A stretch of 64,000 nt of DNA from Mesorhizobium neociceri (GTDB lineage Bacteria > Pseudomonadota > Alphaproteobacteria > Rhizobiales > Rhizobiaceae), in the NCBI RefSeq assembly GCF_013520985.1, contig NZ_JACDTY010000002.1, positions 372,001 to 436,000 on the forward strand. The letters are read 5' to 3'. The notes under the pieces were generated by a model, which was given only the letters and a program-made list of their open reading frames with translations, was not told where the DNA came from and did no database searches. Shown here in pieces: positions 19,359 through 59,148 of this stretch. How positions within the stretch are numbered: position 1 is the stretch's first letter; the number at the start of each line of letters is the position of its first letter. The position numbers were made by a program, and so were the translations under genes.

Positions 19359-21002
19359 ATGAAGCACTTTTTCAACCGCAGGGAAACGATCGTCACCGAG
19401 GCGCTGGACGGCCTGTTGCGGACCATCGGTTCCGGCGATCTGGCGCGCCTCGATGGTTATCCCGAGATCAAGGTTGTGCTGCGCGCCGACTGGGACAAGG
19501 CCAAAGTTGCCGTCGTTTCCGGCGGCGGCGCCGGGCACGAACCTTCGCATGCCGGCTTCGTCGGCAAGGGCATGCTGACGGCGGCGGTCTCGGGCGAGAT
19601 CTTTGCCTCGCCGAGCGTCGAGGCGGTGCTGGCCGCGATCCGCGCAGTGACCGGCCCGGCCGGCTGCTTGCTGATCGTCAAGAATTACACCGGCGACCGG
19701 CTCAATTTCGGCCTGGCTGCCGAGAAGGCGCGCGCCGAGGGGTTTCGCGTCGAAATGGCGATCGTCGCCGACGATATCGCCTTGCCATATATCAACCAGC
19801 CGCGCGGCGTCGCCGGCACCTTGTTTGTGCACAAGATCGCCGGCCATTTGTCAGAAACCGGAAGCGATCTGACGTCCATTGCGACAGCGGCTCGCGCGGC
19901 GGCAAAGGACATCGTCTCGCTCGGCATGTCGCTGTCCTCCTGCTCCATCCCCGGCCAACCGCATGAAGACAGGTTCGGCGAAAACGACGGCGAACTCGGC
20001 CTCGGCATCCACGGCGAGCCGGGCGTCGAGCGGATCGCGGTGCAAAGCGCCGACAAGCTTGTCGCGATCATGGCGGAGCGGCTTGCCGCACGGCTCGACC
20101 CGGAGGCCAGCCACGCTCTCCTGATCAACAATCTCGGCTCGGTGCCGCCGCTCGAAATGTCGCTGGTTGCCAATGCGGTGCTAGCCTCGCCGCTCGCCAA
20201 GACGGTGAAGCTTGCGATCGGCCCCGGGCCGCTGATGACGGCGCTCAACATGAACGGCTTCTCGCTGTCGCTGATCAAGCTCGATGCCGTGCGCGAGGCG
20301 GCCTTGCTGGCGCCCGTCGGCCCGCATGCCTGGATGCCGGCAAAGCCGGTTGCAGCTCCGGCCATTGTGCCGATGGCGAAGGCAGCCGGACAAAGCTCGA
20401 CGCGCAAGCCCAGCGAAAATGCAAACACCAGACGGCTTGTCGTCACGATCTGCGACCGGCTGATTGCACTCGAAGAGACATTGAACGGGCTGGACGCCAA
20501 GGCGGGCGATGGCGATACCGGCTCTACGGTGGCGAACGGCGCGCGCAGCGTGCTGGAAAAGCTCGACACGCTGCCGCTTGCCGACCCGGCCGCGACGCTT
20601 GCGGCGGTGGGCGATAGTCTGGGGGTCGCCATGGGCGGCTCCTCAGGTGTGCTGCTGTCGATCTTCTTCACTGCGGCGGCGCAGGCTTCGAATACTGGCG
20701 CGGCCGTGTCCAGGGCGCTGCTTGCCGGCCTTGACCGCATGACCTTCTACGGCGGCGCAAGGATCGGCGACCGCACCATGGTCGATGCCCTGGAGCCGGC
20801 GCTGAAAGCGCTTGATGCCAGAAGCCTGGAGGCGGCGGCGACAGCCGCCCGGCACGGTGCCGAAGCGACGGCGGCCATGGAGAAGGCGAAGGCCGGACGC
20901 TCCGCCTATGTCGGCACCAAATTGCAGGGCGTGGTCGACCCCGGCGCCCATGCCGTGGCCGAAGTGTTCGCGGCCGCCGCCGCGCTGCATGCAACGGCCT
21001 GA
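19359..21002 (+). CDS. Dihydroxyacetone kinase, fused DhaK-DhaL (ATP-dependent type)
   Basis: A 547-residue cytoplasmic protein. Residues 1-330 are the DhaK domain (VVSGGGAGHEPSHAGFVGKGML; His218 in GIHGEPG is the residue that binds dihydroxyacetone covalently). After a linker of about 25 residues comes the DhaL/DAK2 nucleotide domain (from about 360, with LDAKAGDGDTGST for Mg-ATP). Fusion of both domains is the mark of single-chain ATP-dependent kinases as in Citrobacter and eukaryotes. It makes dihydroxyacetone phosphate. It follows the transporter genes with a 79-base gap and an AGGACG ribosome site. Confidence 0.9.
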   Translation: MKHFFNRRETIVTEALDGLLRTIGSGDLARLDGYPEIKVVLRADWDKAKVAVVSGGGAGHEPSHAGFVGKGMLTAAVSGEIFASPSVEAVLAAIRAVTGPAGCLLIVKNYTGDRLNFGLAAEKARAEGFRVEMAIVADDIALPYINQPRGVAGTLFVHKIAGHLSETGSDLTSIATAARAAAKDIVSLGMSLSSCSIPGQPHEDRFGENDGELGLGIHGEPGVERIAVQSADKLVAIMAERLAARLDPEASHALLINNLGSVPPLEMSLVANAVLASPLAKTVKLAIGPGPLMTALNMNGFSLSLIKLDAVREAALLAPVGPHAWMPAKPVAAPAIVPMAKAAGQSSTRKPSENANTRRLVVTICDRLIALEETLNGLDAKAGDGDTGSTVANGARSVLEKLDTLPLADPAATLAAVGDSLGVAMGGSSGVLLSIFFTAAAQASNTGAAVSRALLAGLDRMTFYGGARIGDRTMVDALEPALKALDARSLEAAATAARHGAEATAAMEKAKAGRSAYVGTKLQGVVDPGAHAVAEVFAAAAALHATA

Positions 21003-21072
21003 TGGCATGCTTCAGTTGTCGAATGAAAATTCTTTCGATACTGCCGGCAGGACCGAAACCGGGAATTGGGAT

Positions 21073-21675
21073 ATGGCGGCGTTGGACCTTGCCAGGCTGA
21101 TCACGGCCGCCGCGGATACGATTGCCGCTCACGCGGAAGAGCTGACGGCGCTGGACCAGGCGATCGGCGACGGCGACCACGGGCTGAACATGAAGCGCGG
21201 CTTCGAGGCCGTGCGGGCCGAGGCCCAGGCGTTTTCGGCAAAGCCGCTGCCCGAGGCCCTGAAGGCGATCGGCACCAAGCTGGTGATGACGGTGGGCGGC
21301 GCTTCCGGACCGCTGTTCGGCACGCTGTTCCTGGCGCTGGGCAAGGAGATTTCGGCCACGCCGGATCGCGCCAACCTGACGGCGGCCTTCGGCAAGGCAA
21401 TCGAAGCCGTGGGCGCGCGCGGCAAATCACAAGTCGGGCAAAAGACCATGCTTGATGTGCTGCAGCCGGCATACGAGGCGCTGGTGGCGGGAAAGTCGGC
21501 GGCGGAAATCGCCGATATCGCCGATCGTGCAGCGGATGCCACCGTGCCTATGAAGGCTCTGCGCGGACGCGCCTCGTTCCTTGGCGACCGTTCCATCGGT
21601 CACATGGATGCCGGTGGGCGCTCGGTCGCGCTGCTGGTGCGGACGATCGGCGAAACGCTGGAAGGTCAGCCATGA
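21073..21675 (+). CDS. dhaL: Dihydroxyacetone kinase subunit DhaL
   Basis: A 200-residue DAK2-domain protein that holds ADP/ATP as a fixed cofactor in the PEP-dependent system. The metal-nucleotide motif is ALDQAIGDGDHGLNM and the lid region GGASGPLFGTLFL. The ATG at 21073 gives the family length; an in-frame ATG at 21007 would add 22 residues without a good ribosome site. It overlaps dhaM by four bases. Confidence 0.9.
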   Translation: MAALDLARLITAAADTIAAHAEELTALDQAIGDGDHGLNMKRGFEAVRAEAQAFSAKPLPEALKAIGTKLVMTVGGASGPLFGTLFLALGKEISATPDRANLTAAFGKAIEAVGARGKSQVGQKTMLDVLQPAYEALVAGKSAAEIADIADRAADATVPMKALRGRASFLGDRSIGHMDAGGRSVALLVRTIGETLEGQP

Positions 21676-22061
21676 GCAATGTCGGTATCGTCATCGTCTC
21701 GCATTCGCCACTGGTCGCTGAAGGCACGGCCGATATGGTGCGGCAGATGGTGGGCGACGAAGTGCCGCTTGCATGGTGCGGCGGAAACGGCCATGGCGGG
21801 CTCGGCACCAGCGTCGAGGCGATCATGGGCGCCATCGAAAAGGCGTGGTCGGAGGCGGGTGTCGCCATCCTCGTCGATCTCGGCGGCGCCGAGACCAACT
21901 CGGAGATGGCGGTGGAAATGATCGGCGAGCCGCGGGCGCAGAAGATTATCGTCTGCAACGCGCCGATTGTCGAAGGCGCGGTGATGGCCGCGACGGAGGC
22001 GTCCGGCGGCGCCTCGCTGAAGGAAGTGGTGGCGACGGCGCATGAATTGTCGCCGTCGTGA
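21672..22061 (+). CDS. dhaM: PTS-dependent dihydroxyacetone kinase phosphotransferase DhaM (EIIA domain)
   Basis: A 129-residue protein with the EIIA-Man fold. The phospho-acceptor is His11 in GIVIVSHSPLVAEG. The motif GGNGHGGLGTS is conserved in DhaM. It rephosphorylates ADP bound to DhaL, using phosphate passed from HPr. Unlike E. coli DhaM it carries no fused HPr or EI domain; those are the next two genes. Confidence 0.9.
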   Translation: MSNVGIVIVSHSPLVAEGTADMVRQMVGDEVPLAWCGGNGHGGLGTSVEAIMGAIEKAWSEAGVAILVDLGGAETNSEMAVEMIGEPRAQKIIVCNAPIVEGAVMAATEASGGASLKEVVATAHELSPS

Positions 22062-22082
22062 GTGAACGGGAATTTTGAGCGC

Positions 22083-22385
22083 ATGTCCGCATTTGCCGAA
22101 GCCACCGTCCTGATTACCCACGAGGTGGGTCTGCACGCGCGCCCTTCAGTGAAGTTCACCAAGCTTGCCAAGAGCTTTGCCGCCGAGGTGGAAATCGCGC
22201 TTGCCGCCAACGGCCCGTGGTTCGACGCCAAGAGCATCGTCAAGGTGATGGCGACCAGAGCGCCGAAAGGCACCATGCTGCATATCAGAGCCAGCGGCGA
22301 AGCCGCCACTGAGGCGGTCGGCGCGCTGGCCGAGCTGGTGCGGCGTGATTTCGACGAGGGCGCGGGCCATGCCCGAACCGCTTAG
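22083..22385 (+). CDS. HPr phosphocarrier protein of the dihydroxyacetone PTS
   Basis: A 100-residue HPr. The active His18 lies in EVGLHARPSVKF. The regulatory-serine region is present as FDAKSIVKVM. The start is ATG 22083 preceded by TGAGCG; a GTG at 22062 is an alternative. The gene overlaps the Enzyme I gene by 17 bases. As it is encoded between dhaM and EI, it most likely serves dihydroxyacetone phosphorylation and not the nitrogen PTS. Confidence 0.88.
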   Translation: MSAFAEATVLITHEVGLHARPSVKFTKLAKSFAAEVEIALAANGPWFDAKSIVKVMATRAPKGTMLHIRASGEAATEAVGALAELVRRDFDEGAGHARTA

Positions 22386-23970
22386 GCTGCAAGGCATTTC
22401 GGCCTCGGCCGGCTATGCCGAAGGGCCGCTGTTCAATCTCGACCGCGGCCCGGCGCGCTACACAGGCAAGGCGACGGCCGGCGAGGAGAAGGCCGCACTG
22501 AAAGCAGCTATCGCCAGCGCGAGTGACCGGCTCGCGACCCTGATCGAAACCGCCGATGACGAGGCCGCCGGCATTCTCGAATTCCAGCTCGCCATGCTTG
22601 AGGACGATGCCCTGACCGGACCGGCCTTTGTGGCGATCCCGTCGGGCGTGCCGGCCGACATGGCCTGGCGGCAGGCATTGGACGCCGAGATCGCCGGCTA
22701 TGAAACATCCGACCAGGACTACTTCCGGGCGCGCGCTGCCGACATGCGCGATATCCGCGACCGTGTGCTGCGCGCGCTGACGGAGGAGCAGGAGAGCGCC
22801 GCACCTGCCGGCGCCATTCTCTATGGCGAGGACATTGCGCCGACACGCTTTCTCGAGACCGACTGGAGCGCCGGTGGCGGCATCGCGCTGAGGGCCGGCA
22901 GCACCGCCAGCCACGTCGCCATGCTGGCGCGCTCGCGCGGTGTGCCTATGATCGTGGGACTTGGGGTGGTGGGGCTTGGCTCTTCGCCGGCTAATCCCAA
23001 TGGCCTGGCGCTGCTCGATGCCGAGCATGGCGGCATTGTATTGGCGCCGTCCAAGGCCGAGATCGAAACCTTCCGCCGGTCGTCGTCTTCGTTTGCGGCA
23101 CGCCGGGACAAGGCCGAAGCCTATCTGGCGAAACCGGCGGTAACTCGGGCTGGCACGACGGTGCGCGTGCAGGTCAACATCGCCGATCCGTCGGAGGTCG
23201 ACGGCATCGACATCGCAACCTGCGACGGCGTTGGGCTGATGCGCACCGAATTCCTGTTCGGCAAGGCGCCGCCGGATGAGGAGACGCAGTACCGCGCTTA
23301 CCGTAAGGTGCTGGAATGGGCAGGCGAGAAGCCGGTGACCATACGCACTGTCGATGCCGGCGGCGACAAGCCGGTGCCGGGCTTCACCGTCGAGGAGAGC
23401 AACCCGTTCCTCGGACTGCGCGGCATCAGGCTGTCGCTGGCAAGGCCGGACGTGTTTCGTGTGCAAATCCGGGCGTTGCTGCGCGCCGCCGTGCACGGCA
23501 ATCTGAAGGTCATGTTTCCAATGATCGCCGTCACGGAGGAGTACCAACGTGCCGCCGCTCTTTTCGCCGAGGAGCAGGCTGGCCTCATCGCGCGTGGCAT
23601 CGCGCAGAAAATGCCGCCGCTCGGCATCATGGTGGAGGTGCCGTCTGTGGCGATCGCGCCGGATGCGTTTGCCGATGTCGCCTTCTTCTCGATCGGCTCC
23701 AACGATTTGACCCAATATGTGATGGCCGCCGCCCGCGACAACGCCGCGGTGGCGCACCTCAATTCGGTGCGCCATCCGGCCGTGCTGCGGCTGATCGCTG
23801 CGGTGACCGCGTTCGGCTTGCGAGCCAAAATCCCGGTCAGCCTGTGCGGCGATGCTGGCGGCGACCCGGCCTCAATACCGGCGCTGCTCGAGGCCGGCCT
23901 GCGCGATCTCTCGGTGGCCCCTGCCCAACTCGCCATGGCCAAAGCGGCCATCTCAGATGTTGCGGTCTAG
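22369..23970 (+). CDS. Phosphoenolpyruvate-protein phosphotransferase (Enzyme I)
   Basis: A 533-residue Enzyme I. The N-terminal HPr-binding and swivelling domains contain the phospho-His182 (GSTASHVAMLARSRGVPMIVG). The C-terminal barrel contains GLMRTEFLF, NPFLGLRGIRL, SIGSNDLTQY and the catalytic Cys in VSLCGDAGGDP. It takes phosphate from PEP and passes it to HPr. There is no GAF domain, so it is not the PtsP-type enzyme of the nitrogen PTS. It begins inside the HPr gene, which indicates coupling. Confidence 0.92.
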   Translation: MPEPLRLQGISASAGYAEGPLFNLDRGPARYTGKATAGEEKAALKAAIASASDRLATLIETADDEAAGILEFQLAMLEDDALTGPAFVAIPSGVPADMAWRQALDAEIAGYETSDQDYFRARAADMRDIRDRVLRALTEEQESAAPAGAILYGEDIAPTRFLETDWSAGGGIALRAGSTASHVAMLARSRGVPMIVGLGVVGLGSSPANPNGLALLDAEHGGIVLAPSKAEIETFRRSSSSFAARRDKAEAYLAKPAVTRAGTTVRVQVNIADPSEVDGIDIATCDGVGLMRTEFLFGKAPPDEETQYRAYRKVLEWAGEKPVTIRTVDAGGDKPVPGFTVEESNPFLGLRGIRLSLARPDVFRVQIRALLRAAVHGNLKVMFPMIAVTEEYQRAAALFAEEQAGLIARGIAQKMPPLGIMVEVPSVAIAPDAFADVAFFSIGSNDLTQYVMAAARDNAAVAHLNSVRHPAVLRLIAAVTAFGLRAKIPVSLCGDAGGDPASIPALLEAGLRDLSVAPAQLAMAKAAISDVAV

Positions 23971-23981
23971 GTGTGGCTGAG

Positions 23982-24407
23982 ATGGTCGACAAGACACCAG
24001 AACCCGGCTCCGAAGAAGCGATCCGCGCCTACAAGACGATCCTGTCGCAGGTCATCGACCAGCGCCCGTCGGGCATGCGCCAGCGTCTTGCCGATGCGCT
24101 GGGCAAGCACCGCAGCTTCGTCACGCAGATCTCCAGCCCGGCCTATTCGATCCCGATCCCGTCAAAACATTTGCCGGCTATTTTCTCGGTCTGCCACTTC
24201 AGCCCGGCCGAGCGCGATCATTTCCTCGCCGCCTACCATCTGGCGCATCCAGGCAAGATGTCTATCGCGGCGGGCATGCGCAAAACGCGGCATGTCTCGC
24301 TGATCGTGCCCGATTTCGGTGACGACAGGCAGAATGCGGCGCTCGACCGCGCGATCAACGAATTCATCCAGAAGATCACCAGCATCACCGGCAGGAGTGG
24401 TGGCTGA
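23982..24407 (+). CDS. Hypothetical protein, possible helix-turn-helix, in the dihydroxyacetone operon
   Basis: A 141-residue protein of no recognised family. Residues about 20-75 (LSQVIDQRPSGMRQRLADAL, then GKHRSFVTQISSPAYSIPIP) look like a Cro-type helix-turn-helix that might bind DNA. The rest is helical with no membrane segment. The position between Enzyme I and dhaK, with short gaps, suggests an operon-specific regulator or partner. A GTG at 23973 is an alternative start. Confidence 0.65.
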   Translation: MVDKTPEPGSEEAIRAYKTILSQVIDQRPSGMRQRLADALGKHRSFVTQISSPAYSIPIPSKHLPAIFSVCHFSPAERDHFLAAYHLAHPGKMSIAAGMRKTRHVSLIVPDFGDDRQNAALDRAINEFIQKITSITGRSGG

Positions 24408-24434
24408 TTGTCGCGTGCCGTGTCGGGAGGACAC

Positions 24435-25421
24435 ATGAAGAAATTTATGAATTCAGTCGACACGGTGCTGACCGAAAGCCTCGATGGTTTCGTTGCCGCC
24501 CATGCCGACATTCTGGTGCTGGGTGACGAGCACAAATTCATCCGCCGCAAGGTGCTGAAGCCGGGGAAAGTGGCGCTGATCTCGGGCGGCGGCTCGGGTC
24601 ACGAGCCGCTGCACGCCGGCTTTGTCGGCCACGGCATGCTGGACGCTGCCTGCCCCGGCCAGGTTTTCACCTCGCCGACGCCGGACCAGATGCTGGCGGC
24701 TGCGGCGGCCGTCGATACCGGCGCCGGCTGCCTGTTCATCGTCAAGAACTATGAGGGCGATGTGATGAATTTCGACATGGCGGCCGAGATGACCGACGGC
24801 GTCCTGCAAATGGTGATCAATGACGACGTCGCGGTCGAGAACTCGTCCTACACAACCGGCCGGCGCGGCGTTGCCGGCACGCTGGTGGTGGAGAAGATCG
24901 TCGGCGCCGCCGCCGAACAAGGCATGGCACTGGCGGATCTCAAGGCGCTCGGCGATCGGGTCAACGGTGCGACGCGTTCGATGGGTGTGGCGCTGACCAG
25001 CTGCACCGTGCCGGCAGCCGGCAGGCCGACCTTCGACATTGGGGACGGCGAGATGGAATTCGGGGTCGGCATTCACGGCGAGCCCGGCCGGCGTCGCGAT
25101 ACGTTAAAAAGCGCCGATGTCATCGCCGAAGAGATCTGCACCGCGATTCTGGGCGATCTGGGCGACAGGGCGAAAGGCCCGGCGCTGCTGTTCATCAACG
25201 GCTTCGGCGGCACGCCGCTGATGGAGCTTTATCTGATGTACAACAGCGCTCGCACAATCTTCGAAAAGCACGGCGTGATGGTGACCCGCTCGCTGGTCGG
25301 GTCCTATGTGACGTCGCTTGACATGGCCGGCTGCTCGATCACTCTGGCCATGCTGGATGATGAGGCGACGTCATTGTGGGACGCACCGGTGCACACGGCC
25401 GCGCTACGCTGGGGGGTCTAG
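24435..25421 (+). CDS. dhaK: Dihydroxyacetone kinase subunit DhaK
   Basis: A 328-residue DhaK of the PTS-dependent type with no DhaL domain. It has GGGSGHEPLHAGFVGHGMLD, NDDVAVENSSYTTGRRGVAG with the catalytic Asp, and His214 in GIHGEPG, the covalent substrate ligand. It partners DhaL and DhaM encoded upstream. The start ATG has a strong GGAGG site. It is the last gene of the operon; the next genes are minus-strand peptide genes. Confidence 0.92.
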   Translation: MKKFMNSVDTVLTESLDGFVAAHADILVLGDEHKFIRRKVLKPGKVALISGGGSGHEPLHAGFVGHGMLDAACPGQVFTSPTPDQMLAAAAAVDTGAGCLFIVKNYEGDVMNFDMAAEMTDGVLQMVINDDVAVENSSYTTGRRGVAGTLVVEKIVGAAAEQGMALADLKALGDRVNGATRSMGVALTSCTVPAAGRPTFDIGDGEMEFGVGIHGEPGRRRDTLKSADVIAEEICTAILGDLGDRAKGPALLFINGFGGTPLMELYLMYNSARTIFEKHGVMVTRSLVGSYVTSLDMAGCSITLAMLDDEATSLWDAPVHTAALRWGV

Positions 25422-25470: not shown

Positions 25471-25560
25471 CTATCGGGTCGACGGAACCGTGTCCGCCGT
25501 GACGCTGGACAGTTTGCCCGCCTTGCGCAGCACTGGCGTCTCATATGTTTTCTTGGTCAT
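25471..25560 (-). CDS. RiPP precursor peptide 1 (lasso-type leader, non-lasso core)
   Basis: A 29-residue peptide with leader MTKKTYETPVLRKAGKLSSV-TA and core DTVPSTR. The leader carries Tyr6, Pro9, Leu11, Gly15 and Leu17 in the spacing of lasso leaders that bind PqqD-type B1 proteins, and Thr21 in the usual penultimate position. The core has no acidic residue at positions 7-9, so a lasso ring is not possible. A purine-rich site (AGGGGGA) precedes the start. It is one of three tandem paralogues; Pro-Ser in the core is shared by all three. Confidence 0.75.
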   Translation of the reverse strand: MTKKTYETPVLRKAGKLSSVTADTVPSTR

Positions 25561-25593
25561 CGCATTCCCCCTGCTCCATGGCAGCCCTGGCGG

Positions 25594-25698
25594 TCAGCCC
25601 GACGGACCCGTCGGACCCGACGGAGCGATGACCGCCGTGACGCTGGATAGTTTTCCCGCCTTGCGCAGCACCGGCGTCTCATATCGCTTCTTGGTCAT
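25594..25698 (-). CDS. RiPP precursor peptide 2 (lasso-type leader, Gly/Pro/Ser core)
   Basis: A 34-residue peptide. The first 22 residues differ from precursor 1 only at residue 5 (Arg for Thr). The predicted core is VIAPSGPTGPSG, which contains three Ser/Thr each preceded by Pro (PSG, PTG, PSG). These are candidate sites for the kinase or nucleotidyltransferase encoded nearby. The ribosome site AGGGGGAATGCG is identical to that of precursor 1, which points to recent tandem duplication. Confidence 0.75.
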   Translation of the reverse strand: MTKKRYETPVLRKAGKLSSVTAVIAPSGPTGPSG

Positions 25699-25801
25699 CG
25701 CATTCCCCCTTTGTCGGCAAGTCCAGCAGTCACGCGCGCAACCGGTCATGCGGCCTGCCTGGCCGGCACTCCGGCTTCAGCCAAACGACGTCGCAGACGT
25801 C

Positions 25802-25891
25802 CTAAAGCCCCTTTGACGGCCCACCGGCCACCAGGCTGGACAATTTTCCCGCCTTGCGCAGCACAGGCGCCTCATATTCTTTCTTGGTCAT
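25802..25891 (-). CDS. RiPP precursor peptide 3 (lasso-type leader, short core)
   Basis: A 29-residue peptide with leader MTKKEYEAPVLRKAGKLSSL-VA and core GGPSKGL. It is the most divergent of the three: Ala replaces Thr8, and Val replaces the penultimate Thr. The Pro-Ser in the core is kept. The ATG at 25891 follows AAAGGGTG. A longer in-frame reading from 26005 exists but lacks the leader pattern at its start. It is probably the first gene of the three-peptide transcript. Confidence 0.75.
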   Translation of the reverse strand: MTKKEYEAPVLRKAGKLSSLVAGGPSKGL

Positions 25892-26016
25892 TTCCAAACA
25901 CCCTTTGAGTCCAGCGCAAAAGAATGGACGGAAACCGTGGAAAGTCAATTCGTGAGCCGGTTCCTGCCACCACGCGCTGGCTTCATGCATGCTTTTCTGC
26001 AACATACGCTCCTTTC

Positions 26017-26117
26017 AGAGCAGTTCGCCGTTTCACTGAACCGGCGGCCCGCTCTTGGTTGCTTGTTTGACGCAATTCCGGTGGGAAACCGCTACACGCT
26101 TTTCCTGGAATTGCTCT
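26017..26117. repeat. Rhizobial palindromic element, copy 1
   Basis: A 101-bp element made of two hairpins. The first begins AGAGCAGTTCGCCGTTT and closes with CCGCTCT; the second runs from GCAATTCC to GGAATTGC. A second copy of the same family lies at 55744-55845, inside the lasso B2 gene. This copy sits between the peptide genes and the nucleotidyltransferase start. Confidence 0.75.
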
Positions 26118-26142
26118 TGTGGGCGAACGTCATCCGGGTTTG

Positions 26143-27168
26143 ATGCTGCCATCTCTTGCACCTGCCGATGAAAAACTGCTGCTGACCTTCGCCGATCCGG
26201 AGGCGCCGGCTGCCGTTGGCAGTGACGTTGCTGCCAAAAGCTTGCTGGCGCTGCTCGCCAATGCCGAGTTCCACGGCGTGCTGCCGATCATGCTGCGCAA
26301 GCTCAGGGAAATCGGCGACGCCCAATTGCCGGCGGACGCAGCCTTGCAGCAGAAATTGTCGGAACTGCGCGACCAGTCGACGCTGGCAACCGGCCAATCG
26401 ATGCTGCTGCAGTATCATGGTGATCGCATCATGAAGGCATTGGCGGCGAAAGGCGTTCCGGCCCGCATCGTCAAGGGTCCGGTCTTCGCGCGCAAACTTT
26501 ACCGCCACGCCGCCGACCGGCCGTTCACCGACATCGACATCCTGGTTGAGCCGGCCAGCATCGCCGAGGCCAACACGGTGATTGCCGGATGCGGCTTCGA
26601 GCTGTGGAGCGGCGAAGCGCAGTCGCAGGATCTGCAGGAGTTCAAATGGCTGGAGAAGGAGAATACCAGCCTGCTGATCGAACTGCACGGCAACCTGGTG
26701 CATGATTCCGGTATGCGGCGGCGGTTGTCGCTGGGCTTTCGCGAATTGCAGACCATCGATGGCGGCGAGGCCGACACGCCGGCCGCGCTGCTGACCATCG
26801 CCATCGTGCACGCCGCGGGCGGCCACAAGTTCCACCGGCTGCAGCTTTGCGTCGACGTGCTGCAAGGCGTACGCGCGCTGCGCTCATCCGTGGATGAGGA
26901 CCGGTTGTTCGAGGCGGCGCGCATGAGCGGCATCGAGCTCGAACTGGCGACGGTTCTCAATGTGACGGGGCAGCTGTTTAATGCACCGCGCGCGATCGAA
27001 CTTGCTGAGCGCATCAAGCCCGACATCTCGATACGTTTGGCCAAATGGCTCATCACCGGCGATACGCTGCTCGGCGTCAATTCCAGGGACAAGATGCATT
27101 CGCGCCTGCGCCGCGACGCCTTCCGCTGGGTCCAGCGGCTTGCCCGATCCAAGCCCCATGCGGCCTGA
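26143..27168 (+). CDS. Nucleotidyltransferase family protein of the RiPP locus
   Basis: A 341-residue protein of the NTP_transf_5 type. The signature is IVKGPVFARKLYRHAADRPF followed by TDIDILVEP, with Asp130 and Asp132 as metal ligands. Homologues occur in many lasso clusters beside a kinase; the one in the pseudomycoidin cluster has been linked to modification of the phosphorylated peptide. Here it may act on the peptides encoded at 25.5-25.9 kb. The start is uncertain: ATG 26143 is given, and GTG 26119, just after the repeat, is in frame. It overlaps the formyltransferase gene by 11 bases. Confidence 0.82.
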   Translation: MLPSLAPADEKLLLTFADPEAPAAVGSDVAAKSLLALLANAEFHGVLPIMLRKLREIGDAQLPADAALQQKLSELRDQSTLATGQSMLLQYHGDRIMKALAAKGVPARIVKGPVFARKLYRHAADRPFTDIDILVEPASIAEANTVIAGCGFELWSGEAQSQDLQEFKWLEKENTSLLIELHGNLVHDSGMRRRLSLGFRELQTIDGGEADTPAALLTIAIVHAAGGHKFHRLQLCVDVLQGVRALRSSVDEDRLFEAARMSGIELELATVLNVTGQLFNAPRAIELAERIKPDISIRLAKWLITGDTLLGVNSRDKMHSRLRRDAFRWVQRLARSKPHAA

Positions 27169-28165
27169 GCAGGCATTGGACCCGGAAGCGTCGCTCTCAG
27201 CTGTCTTTGTCAGCGAAATCTCCTCTCTCACCGCACCGATGCTGGCTGCCTGGGCTGAGAAAGGTCATCGCATCGCAGCCGTTGTCGTGCCCGGCCCGCT
27301 GCCGGGCAAGCAGTCGAGCTTCAGCACCTGGCGCCGGCACCAGCGCCGTCGGCCGATTTTAAAGCGCTATCTTGGCCACGGACACCCACCCCTGATCGAA
27401 TTCGCTCCGCCCTATGATTGGGCAGAGCTGGGGCAGAAGCTAGCTGGGCTCGAGGCCGATCTCCTGATCTGCTTCGGTTTTCGTGGGCTAATCCCGCAGG
27501 CGGTGCTGACACTGTTTCCAAACGGCGGATTGAACCTTCATCCGGCGCTGCTGCCGCACTATCGCGGCCCTCATCCGATTCACAGGCTGGTCATCGACGG
27601 CAACCACGAAATCCACGGCGGAGTGACCCTTCACAAGATGACGCCGGCATTCGACCAGGGTGATATTCTGGCGCAGGTTGCGTTGCCCATCGAGGATTGG
27701 CATTCGGCAGCGACAGTCTCGGCGGCTATAGCCAGAGCAATGGCCAGGCTGGTGGTGGACGCCGCACCCGAGCATTGCCGCGGCCGGCTAACCGGCATGC
27801 CCCAGCCCAGCGGCGAGTATGTTTGGGCGCAACTGCAGCGAAGCCCGCTGATCGTTGGCGGTGAATCGTCGAGCGCGCATGTCGCCCGACTATGCCGCAT
27901 CATAGGGCCCAGCGTTGCGGTCAACGTGCTGGTAAACGGAAAACCGGTTCGACTGGCGCAGCCTATCCTGCGGCCCCGACCCGTGACCGGCAAGGCGCCG
28001 ATGCAACGATGGGGAGTTGTGGCATTTGACTGCGCAGATCGGCGCGTTGTCCACCTGGCCTACAACCGGCTAACCCGACTGCTTATGCAACTGGAGCGAA
28101 AGCTCGGGTCCGTGGGGCAGCGAAGGCCGGCGCTTCCGATACGAAAATTTGGATCTGAAGATTGA
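27158..28165 (+). CDS. Formyltransferase-like protein of the RiPP locus
   Basis: A 335-residue protein with a formyl transferase domain in residues about 100-215. The catalytic triad pattern is present: Asn and His in GGLNLHPALLPHYRGPHPIH and the Asp in MTPAFDQGDILAQ. Family members move a formyl group from 10-formyl-tetrahydrofolate to Met-tRNA, glycinamide ribotide or amino sugars. It lacks the overall length and start region of Fmt. Overlap with the nucleotidyltransferase gene suggests both work together, perhaps on a peptide or an attached amino sugar. The substrate is unknown. Confidence 0.8.
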   Translation: MRPEQALDPEASLSAVFVSEISSLTAPMLAAWAEKGHRIAAVVVPGPLPGKQSSFSTWRRHQRRRPILKRYLGHGHPPLIEFAPPYDWAELGQKLAGLEADLLICFGFRGLIPQAVLTLFPNGGLNLHPALLPHYRGPHPIHRLVIDGNHEIHGGVTLHKMTPAFDQGDILAQVALPIEDWHSAATVSAAIARAMARLVVDAAPEHCRGRLTGMPQPSGEYVWAQLQRSPLIVGGESSSAHVARLCRIIGPSVAVNVLVNGKPVRLAQPILRPRPVTGKAPMQRWGVVAFDCADRRVVHLAYNRLTRLLMQLERKLGSVGQRRPALPIRKFGSED

Positions 28166-28172
28166 GTGTGGC

Positions 28173-29162
28173 TCAGTCGGCCAGTGCGGCACGGATCAAT
28201 GTTGACGCCTCGGTCGGGTTCGCGCCGACTTCCAGAGTAAACGTCGGAACGGCTTTGACCAGCATCGCGATGGTTGCCATGCGGCGCTTCTGCGCCGGCA
28301 AAAGGCCGGTCATGCCGGTCCTGACATTGTCGGCGGCGAGCGCCACCATGGCGTCGGTCCTGGCCATCGGCACGAGCCGGGTTTGCGCGTCCGGCGAGCG
28401 GGCGAGATGAAGCAGCGCCGCAACCGGCCTGTCGGCCGTCTCCTCGATGCGGATGATCTCGGCCAGGCGCTCCAGCGAGACGGCCTGCTCGCCATTGGCG
28501 TCCCATTTGTCGCCGAGGCAGGGGGCCACGAAAGGCAGCATTGCCGCCGTGTGGCGGTGGACCTTCACCTTGCGCGGCAAACCCCAGGCCGTGATGCCGC
28601 CGCCGGACGCAAGCTTGAGGATCATGACGTCGTCCGAGCACAGGCCGAAGCCTTGCGATGCCAGCGCCAGCGACGTTGTCGATTTGCCGGTGCCGCTCGG
28701 CGCGTGGATCAGCACAAGCACCTCGCGGCCGGGCAACGTCAGGCCGGCGGTGTGGAGCATGTGCTGACCACCTGCATCGAGCGCGGCATCCAGCACCATC
28801 ATCAGCAACGTCCATTTTACCTTGGCGTCGGGATGAACGTAGATTTCAGCCCAGCCCTCATCGGCATTGATCGAGGCGGTCTGCAGGCCGGGAAAGATCA
28901 GGTGAACGATGCCGCCACCGTCGATCAGCCGGCAATGGCCGTCCTCCGGCACCTCGCCGTCGAAAGCGAGTTTTCCGGCAGGCAATTCCTGCAGCGCCGA
29001 CGTCTCGACGATGTTGACGCGGAAACCGGGCTCGACGGGTTCGGCCATACGCAGCGTGCCGAGCATGAGGTCGAAGCTCGGCCAGAGATCGGCCCGCGAG
29101 GCGGATATGCTGATGACCTGGCCCTTGAGGTCATAGCAGAAAGTGGCCGCCGAATCGCTCAA
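28173..29162 (-). CDS. HPr-kinase-like P-loop protein (peptide kinase candidate)
   Basis: A 329-residue protein with an HprK-type C-terminal kinase domain. The P-loop is HAPSGTGKSTTS (Lys160) and the following pair Asp177-Asp178 (LCSDDVMIL) matches the HprK catalytic acid region. In lasso clusters such kinases (for example PadeK of the paeninodin cluster) phosphorylate a Ser of the precursor. The TTG start at 29162 overlaps the B2 stop in TTGA. The 5' part, residues 1-120, is unlike HprK of the ManR/EI pathway, so the protein is not the usual HPr kinase. Confidence 0.82.
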   Translation of the reverse strand: MSDSAATFCYDLKGQVISISASRADLWPSFDLMLGTLRMAEPVEPGFRVNIVETSALQELPAGKLAFDGEVPEDGHCRLIDGGGIVHLIFPGLQTASINADEGWAEIYVHPDAKVKWTLLMMVLDAALDAGGQHMLHTAGLTLPGREVLVLIHAPSGTGKSTTSLALASQGFGLCSDDVMILKLASGGGITAWGLPRKVKVHRHTAAMLPFVAPCLGDKWDANGEQAVSLERLAEIIRIEETADRPVAALLHLARSPDAQTRLVPMARTDAMVALAADNVRTGMTGLLPAQKRRMATIAMLVKAVPTFTLEVGANPTEASTLIRAALAD

Positions 29163-29593
29163 GCCGCGTGCGCCTTTCCAGCATCGGCATGATGGCGATA
29201 GATCTGCACCATGCCGGGGAGGCTGTCGCTGACCACCGGCCGGCCGTCGAGGCAAACCCAGCAATGGGCGGACATGCGCGGCGCCTGCATCGACTGCGGA
29301 TCGACGCCGAAGCGCAGATCGGGATCGAAGCCGGCAAAGCGCAGGAAGCGGTGAGCCAGCAGGCCCTCGCGCAGGCATCTGCGGTCGCGCATCAGCCAGG
29401 GGTGCCGGACGGTGCGATTGACGGCAGAAACGATGTAGGCGGACGACAGGCCGCGATAAGGGGTAGGCGCGCTGAGCGGGGCCCATTTCAACACCGATTC
29501 GAAGCTGCGGCGGCCGATCAGGACCGGCATCAGCCGCGCACTTGTCCACAGGTGGACGCGAAACAGGGTGCGCAGGAGAATGCCGTCCGCCAT
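29159..29593 (-). CDS. Lasso B2-type transglutaminase-like leader protease
   Basis: A 144-residue protein of the B2 family. The triad residues are visible: Cys73 (DRRCLREGLLAHRFLRFAG), His110 (APRMSAHCWVCLDG) and Asp122, which is 12 residues after the His as in McjB; Asp116 is an alternative. B2 proteins cut leaders after the penultimate Thr region. It overlaps the PqqD-type gene (TGATG) and the kinase gene. No cyclase gene is present nearby, so here it probably releases a linear modified peptide. Confidence 0.82.
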   Translation of the reverse strand: MADGILLRTLFRVHLWTSARLMPVLIGRRSFESVLKWAPLSAPTPYRGLSSAYIVSAVNRTVRHPWLMRDRRCLREGLLAHRFLRFAGFDPDLRFGVDPQSMQAPRMSAHCWVCLDGRPVVSDSLPGMVQIYRHHADAGKAHAA

Positions 29594-29880
29594 CACGCAG
29601 CCGGGTCGGCGAGAATGCCTTCGCTCACCAGTTCGGCGGCCAGCGCCGCCATGTCCTGGTCGAGCGTGTCCTTGTCGACCTCGAACTCGTCGGAAAGCAG
29701 GACGACGATCTGGTCGAGGCTGCGGGCGCCGTCGACCTTGTCGAGAAAGGCTTCGGTGGTGCCGTTGCAGGTGTAAAGCTGGCCGCTGCGCGCCAAAAGC
29801 ACGACGGCACCGTCGCCGACATGCTGGACCGAGGCGTCGTCCGCCAGCCGCAGAACCATTTCAGAAGCGATTTGGGCCAT
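29593..29880 (-). CDS. PqqD-type leader-binding protein (RRE, lasso B1-like)
   Basis: A 95-residue PqqD-like protein with the winged-helix pattern of a RiPP recognition element (ASVQHVGDGAVVLLARSGQL, then YTCNGTTEAFLDKVDGARSL). These proteins bind the Tyr-x-x-Pro part of the leader and present it to the B2 protease. The ATG at 29880 has CTGGAGGGG in front. It is first in a three-gene operon with B2 and the kinase, all overlapping. Confidence 0.85.
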   Translation of the reverse strand: MAQIASEMVLRLADDASVQHVGDGAVVLLARSGQLYTCNGTTEAFLDKVDGARSLDQIVVLLSDEFEVDKDTLDQDMAALAAELVSEGILADPAA

Positions 29881-53515: not shown

Positions 53516-54655
53516 TCACTGGCTTTCCGGCCGTTCGAAAATCCGCCGGCTGAGATCGGCGGACGCGGCCCAGCCAGCCTCGGTCAGGTAGCGGACAGGT
53601 TCGCGACCGCACAGTTCCCACAAAACGGTGCGCCGTTGCGGCCACTTCAGCGACGACAGCCACGGCGCGATGACCATGTGGAACAGGTCTTCATTGCCGA
53701 TGCGTGACAGGATCCTGGTGGCCCGATCCGAGAGCAGCGTGCCGGCGCCGCCAAGCAGCACGTCGGCGGCGCGCAGGCCCAGCAGCAACGTGTCGGCCAG
53801 CCCCTGCTCGGCCGCGTAGTCGAGCACATTCTGCTGCTCGGCCTCGCTCAGGCGGCTGGCGGCGGCCCTGATATCGCAGACATAGCCCGCGCAAGGTTCG
53901 CGGTTGAACAACGCCTTGGCGACACTGATGCAGGACAACAGCAAAGTGTCGGAAGCCGAGATGAACGGCACGCTGGAGCCGGCGATCGCAAGCGAGCGCT
54001 TGCGGCGCAGGAACCCGTCCGTGTCGCGCGGGCTCGGCGATCCCGGCTGCTGCAGCCGATAATGGAGATCGACAGTGGACGATTTTAGGCCCTGACGGCG
54101 AACCATGTGCTGCTCGCCCAGAAAGCGCACCCACCAGACGGAGCGGGACTTGCCCGCGACCTCGTAGCCGATCGAGCGCAGCGCATCACGGGCTTTGAAG
54201 AAACCGGCCGGCGACACCAAGATGTCGACATCGCCAGACGGCTTCATGAAGTGGTCGCCATAGAGCAGCTGCTGTTGGAACGGTCCCTTCAGGAAGACGA
54301 AATCGATCCGCCTGTCGCGCAGCGCCTTGTCGATGGCCATTGAATCCATAATGCCGGACGAGTTCATCGCAATGGTGCGCCGGCGATAGGTGTCGAGCCA
54401 CTCGAGCAGCCCCGGCGGCGTCTCGCCTGCCGGTGGGCGCAACAAGGCCTTCAGGACGAAGGTTGCGACCTTGTTCAGCCTGGCGATGTCGCAAACATTG
54501 GCAACGGAGATGGCCGGCGCAGGCGCGGTGCTGGCGCTCGCCTCCGAATTGAAGAATAGCCGCAGGCACGCCTGCACATAGGCCACTTCGTCGGCGCAGC
54601 CGGCGGCGCGCAACCTCTCGAAGGTCCCTTCCTGCAAGGCCATATGCTGCAGCAT
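53516..54655 (-). CDS. Nucleotidyltransferase family protein of the lasso cluster
   Basis: A protein of at least 379 residues of the NTP_transf_5 type, with FVFLKGPFQQQLLYGDHFMK and GDVDILVSP (Asp142 and Asp144). It is a distant relative of the protein encoded at 26143. The start is uncertain: the frame stays open to 54844 and the sequence from GTG 54781 looks partly coding, giving up to 421 residues. It is divergent from the lasso operon. Such enzymes with a kinase are known in some lasso clusters and may modify the peptide tail. Confidence 0.8.
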   Translation of the reverse strand: MLQHMALQEGTFERLRAAGCADEVAYVQACLRLFFNSEASASTAPAPAISVANVCDIARLNKVATFVLKALLRPPAGETPPGLLEWLDTYRRRTIAMNSSGIMDSMAIDKALRDRRIDFVFLKGPFQQQLLYGDHFMKPSGDVDILVSPAGFFKARDALRSIGYEVAGKSRSVWWVRFLGEQHMVRRQGLKSSTVDLHYRLQQPGSPSPRDTDGFLRRKRSLAIAGSSVPFISASDTLLLSCISVAKALFNREPCAGYVCDIRAAASRLSEAEQQNVLDYAAEQGLADTLLLGLRAADVLLGGAGTLLSDRATRILSRIGNEDLFHMVIAPWLSSLKWPQRRTVLWELCGREPVRYLTEAGWAASADLSRRIFERPESQ

Positions 54656-55044
54656 CTCCGCAAAAAATTTCGTGAGGCGCGTTATATTGCACGTGCGAAG
54701 CAAAGCATCGCCAAAATCATCTGCCGCGTCCAGTTTTTCCTTCGGCGGCAATTGTCCTGCAACCTGGACGGTTAACAACACAATCGCGCAACGGAGCGCA
54801 AGACGCTGCCGGAATCGGGCCTGTCGCCGGCACGCCTGCAGCAATTTTTTGCGAATGTGGCCGCGCCTAAAAGGCAGGCATACCAGGTGAAAAATTTAGT
54901 ATAATTAAATCAGTTGCTTAATCAAGCACCACGGAGACCGTGTTGAATTCTTCCGGGATGCGCGGTTAAAGTGCAGATGCAAGCGTTTTGATCACCATTG
55001 AAGGCAGCCGCAACCGAGAATTGATTAACGGCGGGTAAATCAGG

Positions 55045-55141: not shown

Positions 55142-55294
55142 ATGGAACAGAATGTTGAAAAGCATGAGTACGAAACCCCAAGCCTGACGGTCCACGGCTC
55201 GATCGAGACCATCACGCAAGGCGGTAGCGGCACCACGGCACTCGACGCCTCGTTTCCGGCACATACGCCGGTCGGCGAACTCACCTTCTCCTGA
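55142..55294 (+). CDS. Lasso peptide precursor (A)
   Basis: A 50-residue precursor. The leader contains YETPSLTVHGSIETITQ, with Tyr, Pro, Leu, Gly and the penultimate Thr in lasso spacing. The predicted core of 24 residues starts GGSGTTALD: Gly1 would be joined to Asp9 in a nine-residue macrolactam ring, leaving a 15-residue tail ASFPAHTPVGELTFS. Phe12, His15 or other bulky tail residues may serve as plugs. The C-terminal Ser is a plausible phosphorylation site for the kinase in the cluster. GGAGAG lies seven bases before the ATG. I do not recognise this core as a described lasso peptide. Confidence 0.88.
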   Translation: MEQNVEKHEYETPSLTVHGSIETITQGGSGTTALDASFPAHTPVGELTFS

Positions 55295-55356
55295 GACTCT
55301 TCTCGTTGGGGTGACAAAGTCCGGACTCTGAAACAGAGCGCACTAAGGGCACTAAG

Positions 55357-55384
55357 GAGAGTCGGGGCTTAAACCCCGGCTCTC
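55357..55384 (+). terminator. Hairpin between precursor and processing genes
   Basis: GAGAGTCGGGG (55357-55367) pairs with CCCCGGCTCTC (55374-55384), 10 of 11 Watson-Crick pairs plus one wobble, around a CTTAAA loop. It stands between A and B1. In lasso clusters such a hairpin lets precursor mRNA outnumber enzyme mRNA by partial termination or 3' end protection. The run after it is not a clean U-tract. Confidence 0.6.
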
Positions 55385-55445
55385 GCGCCTTGTTTGGAAT
55401 TGCCGAAGCGTTGGTGTTGTAAGCAGTGTGTGAGCGAGGTTTAGG

Positions 55446-55745
55446 ATGGACTGGAACCCCTCGGAGCGTGATCGGGTGAGCGCGAGCAAGGATGCCGTGG
55501 CCTGCGAATTCGGCAACGGCTTGGCGCTGCTCGATATGCAGTCCAACATCTATTACAGCCTGAACAGCGTCGGGGCCTATATCTGGGAACTGATCCAGGA
55601 GCCGAAGCCGATAGCGGAAATCCGCAGCGCCGTGCTCGAGCGCTACAATGTCGAGCCCGAACGCTGCAGGGCCGATGTTGACGGATTGTTGAAAGGCCTG
55701 GCGGACGCCGGGCTTGCGAGGCTCCACGATGAGGAACTTGTCTAG
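55446..55745 (+). CDS. Lasso peptide B1 protein (PqqD-type RRE)
   Basis: A 99-residue PqqD-like protein with the RRE pattern DAVACEFGNGLALLDMQSNI then YYSLNSVGAYIWELI. It binds the leader through its Tyr-x-x-Pro region and delivers it to B2. AGG lies just before the ATG at 55446. Its stop codon TAG falls at the first bases of the palindromic element at 55744, so the present C-terminal end may have been set by the insertion. Confidence 0.88.
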   Translation: MDWNPSERDRVSASKDAVACEFGNGLALLDMQSNIYYSLNSVGAYIWELIQEPKPIAEIRSAVLERYNVEPERCRADVDGLLKGLADAGLARLHDEELV

Positions 55746-56247
55746 AGCGTTTCACCGTTTCACAGAAACGGCGAACCGCTCTATCTCTTTGTTTTCACGC
55801 AATTCCGGACGGGAAAACCGCACACACTTTCCCTGGAATTGCTCCAGGGTTCTCTCGCTGAGCGGGCCGGAGATGCTCTTTCTCGCCCACTGCCTCGCGG
55901 TGGTCGTCGCGGTGCGGTTGGGTCTTACCCTGCTTTCCTACAACAAAATGCGCCGCATGGTGACGCGGCTCGACGCGCACGAGCCGGCCGGCATCGGCGA
56001 TCTCAGACGTGTCGCCTGGGGCGTTGCCGCCGCGGCCCGGCTGGTGCCCGGTGCCACCTGCCTTACCCAGGCGCTTTCGGGCCAATATCTGCTTGCCCGC
56101 CAGGGCAGCGCTTCGAAGATCCGCATCGGCATCGAGCGCGACACCGGCACCGAGTTGAAGGCGCATGCCTGGCTGGTCAGCGGCGACCACATCGTGCTTG
56201 GCGGCTCGCTCGGCAGGTTTACCCATCTCGTCGACCACGGCCAGTGA
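55729..56247 (+). CDS. Lasso peptide B2 leader protease with an element-encoded N-terminus
   Basis: A 172-residue protein of the B2 transglutaminase-like family. The triad candidates are Cys111 (VPGATCLTQALSGQYLLA), His146 (KAHAWLVSGDHIVLGG) and Asp153. The family-like sequence starts at about residue 41 (VLSLSGPEMLFLAHCLAVVV). Residues about 6-39 are translated from the rhizobial palindromic element at 55744-55845 and are not native. The ATG at 55729 overlaps the end of B1. An internal ATG at 55873 would drop the element but also part of the native helix. The protein probably still folds, with an extra N-terminal arm. Confidence 0.82.
   Translation: MRNLSRAFHRFTETANRSISLFSRNSGRENRTHFPWNCSRVLSLSGPEMLFLAHCLAVVVAVRLGLTLLSYNKMRRMVTRLDAHEPAGIGDLRRVAWGVAAAARLVPGATCLTQALSGQYLLARQGSASKIRIGIERDTGTELKAHAWLVSGDHIVLGGSLGRFTHLVDHGQ
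55744..55845. repeat. Rhizobial palindromic element, copy 2, inserted in the lasso B1/B2 junction
   Basis: A 102-bp element of the family also seen at 26017-26117. It starts AGAGCGTTTCACCGTTT, has CCGCTCT closing the first hairpin, and a second hairpin from GCAATTCC to GGAATTGC. It has no stop codon in the B2 frame, so B2 remains open. Confidence 0.78.
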
Positions 56248-56250
56248 CCG

Positions 56251-59141: not shown

Positions 59142-59148
59142 GCCGAGC

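Follow-up and report, generated by a model that had tools for sequence, protein, structure and literature searches.

A cyclase-free locus with lasso-type precursor peptides in Mesorhizobium neociceri and the distribution of its candidate substrates

Gene content and conservation of the locus

The 64,000-nucleotide stretch of Mesorhizobium neociceri DNA analysed here (the window) contains a locus of 4.4 kb (locus 1, positions 25471-29880), which comprises genes for three peptides with a lasso-type leader, a B1 protein of the PqqD type that carries a recognition element (RRE) for ribosomally synthesized and post-translationally modified peptides (RiPPs), a B2 leader peptidase, an HprK-type kinase, an NTP_transf_5 protein, and a formyltransferase (Table 1). 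The NTP_transf_5 and formyltransferase genes are located on the plus strand and are convergent with the B1-B2-kinase operon, which runs on the minus strand from 29880 to 28173. An initial annotation had named the same gene set, and family scans confirmed its PqqD-type B1, NTP_transf_5 protein, and formyltransferase. The three peptide genes are also real, as they lie on the minus strand, have the common leader MTKKxYExPVLRKAGKLSSxxA, and each show a purine-rich stretch at the 5' side; their NCBIfam lasso leader scores (17.6-18.4 bits) are slightly below the cutoff of 19.

The protein that the initial annotation called HPr-kinase-like matches the HprK family models below their cutoffs only. Its AlphaFold model (predicted local distance difference test, pLDDT, 93) resembles the PEPCK/HprK superfamily (PEPCK, E 1e-8; L. 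casei HprK, E 1.9e-7) and its profile matches solved HprK (E 3.7e-5), which upholds the assignment. The residues His137, Lys160, Asp177, and Asp178 are unchanged across 19 aligned kinases, some of which are partial. The model of the NTP_transf_5 protein (pLDDT 92) gave only weak structural matches (best E 0.019), among which nucleotidyltransferases are frequent. A Cys-His-Asp protease had been claimed for B2: the family assignment is above the model cutoff and the Cys and His are conserved in all five aligned locus-1-type B2 proteins, but two of the five lack the Asp of the 'DG' motif. The formyltransferase is distantly similar to Fmt, ArnA, PseJ, and the LgrA chain.

Positions 55142-60984 of the window, 26 kb from locus 1, encode a complete canonical lasso cluster (locus 2), which is separated from locus 1 by glycosyltransferase genes and a polysaccharide flippase-type gene. 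The claim that no cyclase is present therefore holds for the 4.4 kb of locus 1 and not for the window, whose lasso cluster had been missed. The locus-1 B2 scored 106-118 bits against cyclase-free loci of other genera and 25 bits against locus 2, and the locus-1 kinase scored 118-160 bits against full-length kinases of other genera and 37 bits against locus 2; overall, the B2, kinase, and NTP_transf_5 of locus 2 score merely 25-37 bits against the locus-1 proteins. Since the locus-1 proteins are much nearer to those of cyclase-free loci in other genera than to locus 2, a recent duplication of the lasso cluster was ruled out, and locus 1 is an old separate lineage instead of a copy of locus 2.

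Within the genus, 41 loci were compared (the window and 40 loci fetched from the 44 other genomes in which the kinase matched strongly), and B1, B2, the kinase, and NTP_transf_5 were all present in unchanged order in every one of them. This constant order, together with the purifying selection on the peptide leader (see below), indicates that the gene set did not come together by chance. A peptide is located inside the locus in 15 of the 41 (adjoining NTP_transf_5 in 10 and upstream of B1 in 7, including 2 with both), which rules out that the peptides always adjoin the enzymes. Two kinase-negative genomes show the surroundings without any of the four enzymes: G046 has dhaK followed by DUF2259 genes and acs (L198), with the lasso cluster also present (L197), and the two stretches fetched from G035 (L194, L195) hold the acs side and the lasso cluster. 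The dhaK and DUF2259 flanks were assigned by family scan, and the genes that we take to be dhaL, ptsI, acs, and wzc were labelled by reading the sequence.

Relatives were also found outside the genus. The peptide profile, run on 397 genomes from 141 genera of the order, matched 14 genomes of five genera at E 1e-4, eight of them outside the genus, and seven of these eight carried 2-11 matches, some arranged in tandem with as many as six in an array. The kinase was also searched for in one genome per species (84,980 species, with a prefilter of two short patterns), which yielded 92 relatives, of which 80 were kept, including 67 Mesorhizobium-like loci and 13 set apart (one of the 13, L242, is also near Mesorhizobium, with a 77% identical kinase). 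Similar loci occur in Devosia, Ancylobacter, Oricola, Prosthecomicrobium, and genomes labelled Rhodobacteraceae. Among the 80 loci, B1 and B2 were each present in 80 and NTP_transf_5 in 79, and no cyclase was found at 150 bits or above in any (a single 107-bit Asn-synthase-like match occurs in Roseovarius locus L254). The expectation that homologous loci lack a cyclase was thus borne out at the locus, yet 92 of the 97 kinase-positive Mesorhizobium genomes carry one elsewhere. The formyltransferase, which had been considered part of the system, is present at the window locus and turned out to be optional: it occurs in 5 of the 41 same-genus loci and in 14 of the 80 kinase-selected loci (9/67 Mesorhizobium-like, 5/13 set apart), which rules it out as an essential component.

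Lasso-leader peptides lie in or near 11 of the 13 set-apart loci, upstream of B1 in 9 of the 11 as counted by eye, with three and five peptides in two Devosia, four in Oricola, and five in a metagenome-assembled genome (MAG) of Ancalomicrobiaceae. L232 and L242 have no lasso-leader peptide at the locus, and a few open reading frames (ORFs) of L266, L273, and L242 that do not show the leader pattern were set aside by eye as chance. The MAG labelled Phycisphaera (L266) is probably mislabelled. Genomes from other families of this order have 3-6 precursors in tandem (L180-L185), several with paired Cys in the core and with leaders ending in, e.g., KLDRIAA or KLEDITA.

Precursor peptides and their co-occurrence with the kinase

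A peptide profile built from 14 local peptides detected further peptides at other sites in the genomes, a second profile was built from 46 peptides, and 114 distinct combinations of peptide and upstream region from the fetched loci were parsed with the leader pattern. The leader consensus of the 46-peptide model, MKKTYEKPxLxKRxKLSxVTA, shows the lasso leader spacing (Y at -17, P at -14, L at -12, then T or V at -2); 112 of the 114 have Ala at position -1, and position -2 is occupied by Thr (81) or Val (31). The cores are 6-18 residues long (6-9 residues in 68/114), all 114 contain Ser, which first appears at core position 5 in 67 and at position 4 in 18, and 21 contain two or more Cys. None of the three window peptides has Asp or Glu at core positions 7-9, in agreement with the earlier statement that these cores lack a lasso acceptor. 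Because the search models themselves include the Ser, 91 cores from peptides outside both models were checked separately, and Ser was present in 91/91 and at position 4-5 in 74, a partial check in that most of these peptides were still fetched with the models. The leader is under purifying selection, with a nonsynonymous to synonymous ratio of codon changes of 0.32 against a neutral expectation of 2.96 (the pairs are not independent). Three NCBIfam lasso models matched 22, 15, and 8 of the 46 model peptides at E 0.1, and among nine peptides scanned singly (three from the window and six scattered), two scattered ones passed the lasso_leader_L3 cutoff.

The 46-peptide profile was run on 146 same-genus genomes, the genome of the window included, with presence called at E <= 0.01 for peptides, E 1e-30 for the kinase, and E 1e-60 for the cyclase. 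Peptides were detected in 101 genomes (1-29 matches each), the kinase in 97, and the cyclase in 103. The peptides follow the kinase, not the cyclase: they are present in 92/92 genomes with both genes, in 5/5 with the kinase and no cyclase (G040, G109, G130, G172, and G174, with 6, 6, 8, 6, and 16 copies; G172 is merely 79% complete), in 4/11 with the cyclase and no kinase (1-2 copies), and in 0/38 with neither. Every kinase-positive genome has at least three matches, mostly outside the locus. The initial annotation had expected MTKKxYExPVL peptides always near the enzymes and conserved along with them; the peptides accompany the enzymes genome-wide in all 97 kinase-positive genomes, but not side by side with them.

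Kinase status does not depend on the threshold, as the kinase family profile at E 1e-10 gave the same 97 genomes at 394 bits or above, with the next match of any genome at 64.5 bits. The possibility that the kinase-negative genomes contain an overlooked, divergent locus-1 kinase was ruled out, their best match being 61.4 bits against at least 394 in the positives. The relation was also examined on a cyclase tree of 41 genomes (11 kinase-negative and 30 kinase-positive, a chosen subset of the 103 cyclase-positive genomes), where the presence of three or more peptides goes with the kinase in 4/4 independent pairs. In G131 and G147, the cyclase match is in two pieces, indicating a broken or split gene, and the kinase is retained with 12 and 7 peptide matches, respectively.

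The genome of the window has 11 peptide matches, including the three local ones and eight on seven contigs, and in G009, on one contig of 7.2 Mb, the kinase is located at 0.24 Mb and the listed peptides at 0.93, 2.46, 3.08, 3.11, 3.14, and 3.21 Mb. One example of a scattered precursor is MKKTYEKPSLEKRQKLSSVTAVAAPSAGEL. Related peptides were also found on Mesorhizobium plasmids (3 of 72,556 records, one query); one of them is annotated 'putative RiPP precursor', so the class has already been guessed for at least one peptide, and the best match in the other two records has no annotated gene. Ten neighbour proteins of seven scattered peptides in the genome of the window belong to unrelated families or to no family. 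A protein of about 400 aa with a hydrophobic N-terminal stretch is present beside precursors in 17 of 113 fetched loci, overlapping loci included (L103:4747-5946, L108:3423-4688, L113:4841-6076, L115:1307-2608, L117:6340-7542), and the L103 copy has an SdrD_B-like domain. One precursor in the genome of the window is directly followed by a sigma factor gene whose product has a PhyR-type sigma2 domain (L101:6193-7050), a hint of stress regulation.

In the window, locus 1 is directly preceded by a run of dihydroxyacetone kinase genes and genes that we take to encode HPr and enzyme I-like proteins (19359-25421), in which DhaK was assigned by family scan. The position of an HprK-type kinase near an HPr-like gene is probably a coincidence. 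A palindromic intergenic repeat, recognized by eye, is shared by 25997-26120, before the NTP_transf_5 gene of locus 1, and 55740-55850, ending ...GCAATTCCGG...GGAATTGCTC, and it also contributes to the N-terminal ~45 codons of the B2 gene in the lasso cluster; sequences matching residues 11-45 of the locus-2 B2 flank dhaK on both sides in L198, which suggests a repeat element fused into a coding region.

Table 1. Features of locus 1 and of the canonical lasso cluster in the window (for the locus-1 precursors, leader / core)
Feature	Position	Strand	Remarks
Precursor peptide 1	25471-25560	-	MTKKTYETPVLRKAGKLSSVTA / DTVPSTR; 29 aa
Precursor peptide 2	25594-25698	-	MTKKRYETPVLRKAGKLSSVTA / VIAPSGPTGPSG; 34 aa
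Precursor peptide 3	25802-25891	-	MTKKEYEAPVLRKAGKLSSLVA / GGPSKGL; 29 aa
NTP_transf_5 protein	26143-27168	+	PF14907, 98.6 bits; invariant KG and DxD
Formyltransferase, accessory	27158-28165	+	PF00551, 82.1 bits
HprK-type kinase K	28173-29162	-	invariant His137, Lys160 (P-loop), Asp177, Asp178
B2 leader peptidase	29159-29596	-	NF033537, 67.4 bits (cutoff 33); Transglut_core3
B1, PqqD-type RRE protein	29593-29880	-	PF05402, 42.8 bits, above cutoff
NTP_transf_5 paralogue of locus 2	53516-54844	-	comparison; outside the cyclase-free system
Lasso precursor, locus 2	55142-55294	+	core GGSGTTALD..., Asp at core position 9
B1, locus 2	55446-55745	+	
B2, locus 2	55714-56247	+	ORF opens upstream of its first ATG
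Lasso macrolactam cyclase C, locus 2	56251-58170	+	Asn_synthase + GATase_7
HprK-like kinase, locus 2	58167-59141	+	
ABC (ATP-binding cassette) transporter, locus 2	59149-60984	+	

Proposed pathway and alternative explanations

Locus 1 is probably the enzymatic hub of a cyclase-independent, lasso-derived alphaproteobacterial RiPP system that works like the linear polyphosphorylated peptides (LPPs) of Bacillota. By analogy with LPPs and with paeninodin and pseudomycoidin, we infer that B1 would bind the YxxPxL leader through its RRE, that the HprK-type kinase would add phosphate, perhaps more than once, to the Ser that the short cores conserve around position 5, that the NTP_transf_5 protein would elaborate the core phosphate with a sugar or nucleotidyl group, and that cleavage by B2 after Ala -1 would release a linear product 6-18 residues long. 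In loci that encode it, the formyltransferase might formylate the new N-terminus or an attached amino sugar, a guess based on its distant homologues. The order of these steps, like export and biological role, is part of the proposal; the substrates would be recruited in trans, with the Mesorhizobium precursor genes being mostly outside the locus, chromosomal and in some cases on plasmids. The linear, leader-cleaved, phosphorylated product of a cyclase-free lasso front end, as first proposed, is thus a prediction well supported by comparative genomics, with the amendment that the candidate substrates extend beyond the three neighbouring peptides. A wider formulation, for which the case seems to us evenly balanced, is that one cyclase-free set of RRE, B2, kinase, and NTP_transf_5 proteins serves 3-29 mostly unlinked micro-precursors per genome to make short linear phospho(glyco)peptides, perhaps for signalling linked to the surface or exopolysaccharide, and that this is an alphaproteobacterial RiPP class whose product range is unreadable from any cluster.

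Several observations weigh against this interpretation. The NTP_transf_5 model has no fold match in the PDB at E <= 0.001 (Foldseek), and LppN, in the LPP study, had no detectable effect (PMC13381572). None of the 80 loci has an ABC transporter matching the lasso transporter at 250 bits, and no dedicated exporter was found at the locus; weaker generic ABC matches are present around some loci. Asp or Glu occurs somewhere in 35 of the 114 cores and at positions 7-9 in 10. The 80 loci were chosen by the kinase, so the B1, B2, and NTP_transf_5 counts are conditional on it, and the absence of B1 and B2 from kinase-negative genomes refers to the fetched stretches of G046 and G035 only. Four of the 49 kinase-negative genomes (G112, G113, G168, and G177) retain 1-2 peptides, with no kinase match at E 1e-10. 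The peptides correlate with the cyclase too (96/103 against 5/43 genomes), as both loci usually co-occur, and just 16 of the 146 genomes separate kinase from cyclase. Fisher tests of co-occurrence ignore relatedness, and the independent changes are few: kinase status needs five on the cyclase tree, four of them forced by strong branches. For the presence of any peptide, the independent pairs gave means of 2.2 in the same direction, 0 opposite, and 1.8 without difference; with so few pairs, sign tests cannot reach significance.

The alternative that survives best retains the RiPP system and changes its defining step, such that NTP_transf_5 nucleotidylates or glycosylates the core directly or the kinase targets another partner. 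NTP_transf_5 accompanies the kinase almost everywhere with invariant motifs, and PsmN adds a hexose in pseudomycoidin (PMC9266682), which favours this possibility; however, the Ser found in all parsed cores and concentrated at position 4-5, together with the kinase motif, fits phosphorylation, and LppK is reported to phosphorylate core Ser3 of a linear precursor (PMC13381572), so that the alternative is unlikely.

It is very unlikely that locus 1 serves as an annex for tailoring and processing the canonical lasso peptide encoded by locus 2. The two loci are only 26 kb apart around one polysaccharide gene region and both have a kinase and NTP_transf_5, but locus 2 already includes a B1, B2, kinase, and NTP_transf_5 of its own, the locus-1 B2 and kinase are far nearer to cyclase-free loci of other genera, and five genomes have locus 1 but no cyclase while 11 have the cyclase but no kinase.

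Alternatively, the peptides might be orphan lasso precursors that the locus-2 cyclase, 26 kb away, cyclizes in trans, while locus 1 merely adds processing enzymes. The lasso-type leader, the working-looking lasso cluster in the window, the joint presence of kinase and cyclase in 92 of 146 genomes, and the correlation of peptides with the cyclase would be expected on that account, whereas a potential acceptor at positions 7-9 is found in so few cores, 68 of the 114 cores are too short to leave a tail, all five genomes with the kinase alone keep 6-16 peptides, seven of the 11 with the cyclase alone have none, and G131 and G147 keep theirs. The peptides were therefore rejected as lasso cyclase substrates on the kinase/cyclase distribution and core composition, and this explanation is highly improbable.

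Finally, we give hardly any credence to the view that the resemblance to lasso leaders is superficial and that these are small proteins of another kind, such as regulators or antitoxin-like proteins. In its favour, scattered peptides adjoin unrelated genes and several scanned peptides are under the NCBIfam cutoff, but the peptides co-occur near-perfectly with the kinase locus, combine a YxxPxL leader under purifying selection with a hypervariable core, stand upstream of B1 in other genera and in tandem arrays, and include two of six scanned scattered peptides above that cutoff and one annotated 'putative RiPP precursor'.

Comparison with known systems

The closest published system is that of the LPPs, described as restricted to Bacillota (Popov et al., May 2026; PMC13381572). 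LppK puts up to four phosphates on core Ser3, the cyclase is absent, and both the cyclase-free logic and the kinase action were established experimentally (PMC13381572). The initial annotation had stated that such genes always occur with a cyclase and had proposed a separate RiPP class; the former is contradicted and the latter anticipated by these very similar cyclase-free systems, so that the locus-1 system is a variant and no wholly separate discovery. Both have a discrete RRE, an HprK-type kinase, an NTP transferase, and no cyclase in the cluster, together with a YxxP leader and a Ser near the core start, and both are often beside a phosphorylated-type lasso cluster inside a polysaccharide locus (PMC13381572).

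The two also differ. The LPP leader peptidase is the SipW-like signal peptidase LppS, whereas the locus-1 type has the B2 cysteine peptidase in 80/80 loci (no search for SipW homologues was made in the rest of the genome); LPP clusters have an MsbA-like transporter, and their leader motif YxxPxVLxHQxIxFETxxS differs from the consensus found here (PMC13381572). LPP clusters hold 1-3 precursors of 35-200 aa (PMC13381572), in contrast to the 6-18-residue cores and up to 29 mostly unlinked matches per genome in Mesorhizobium, and a formyltransferase sometimes joins the locus-1 type. The locus-1 variant thus stands apart from LPPs by its leader peptidase, its phylum, its very short cores, and its dispersed precursors. 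The LPP text contains no word starting Proteobacteria, Pseudomonadota, Mesorhizobium, or Alphaproteobacteria, and a literature search, which left most subscription papers and all bioRxiv preprints outside its scope, yielded only the LPP paper for the system in Proteobacteria and no paper linking scattered peptides to the enzymes.

RiPP mining usually seeks precursors beside enzymes, and tools restricted to enzyme neighbourhoods or cyclases would miss most of these precursor genes, which are unlinked. Provided that the proposed chemistry is correct, the branch of lasso-derived RiPPs that yields phosphopeptides would extend beyond Bacillota, and the use of two unrelated leader peptidases (SipW-like and B2) would make the evolution of lasso biosynthesis directly testable. 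The system also offers concrete candidate small phosphopeptides in legume symbionts, i.e., soil and root-nodule bacteria, with pairs of cyclase-positive and cyclase-negative genomes available for experiments.

The phosphorylated lasso peptides of the paeninodin/pseudomycoidin type share with locus 1 the B1, the B2, a nucleotidyltransferase, and the kinase with the His-Lys-Asp-Asp residues that are reported to be essential in lasso kinases (PMC9266682). They differ in having a cyclase, an Asp/Glu acceptor, and a phosphorylated C-terminal Ser, in contrast to the absence of a linked cyclase and the Ser within the core at locus 1 (PMC9266682).

Compared with lasso peptides in general, the locus-1 system has the YxxPxL leader, the Thr (or Val) at -2, and the B1/B2 pair, but generally lacks the acceptor at core positions 7-9 and the linked cyclase, and in five of the 97 kinase-positive genomes no cyclase was found at all. 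Locus 2 has the same gene families and the YxxP leader, and it alone carries the cyclase and the ABC transporter. In its organization, the locus-1 system is like that of the prochlorosins, which are lanthipeptides made by a LanM enzyme with unrelated chemistry, and in which one enzyme set likewise serves many precursors with a common leader, some of them unlinked.

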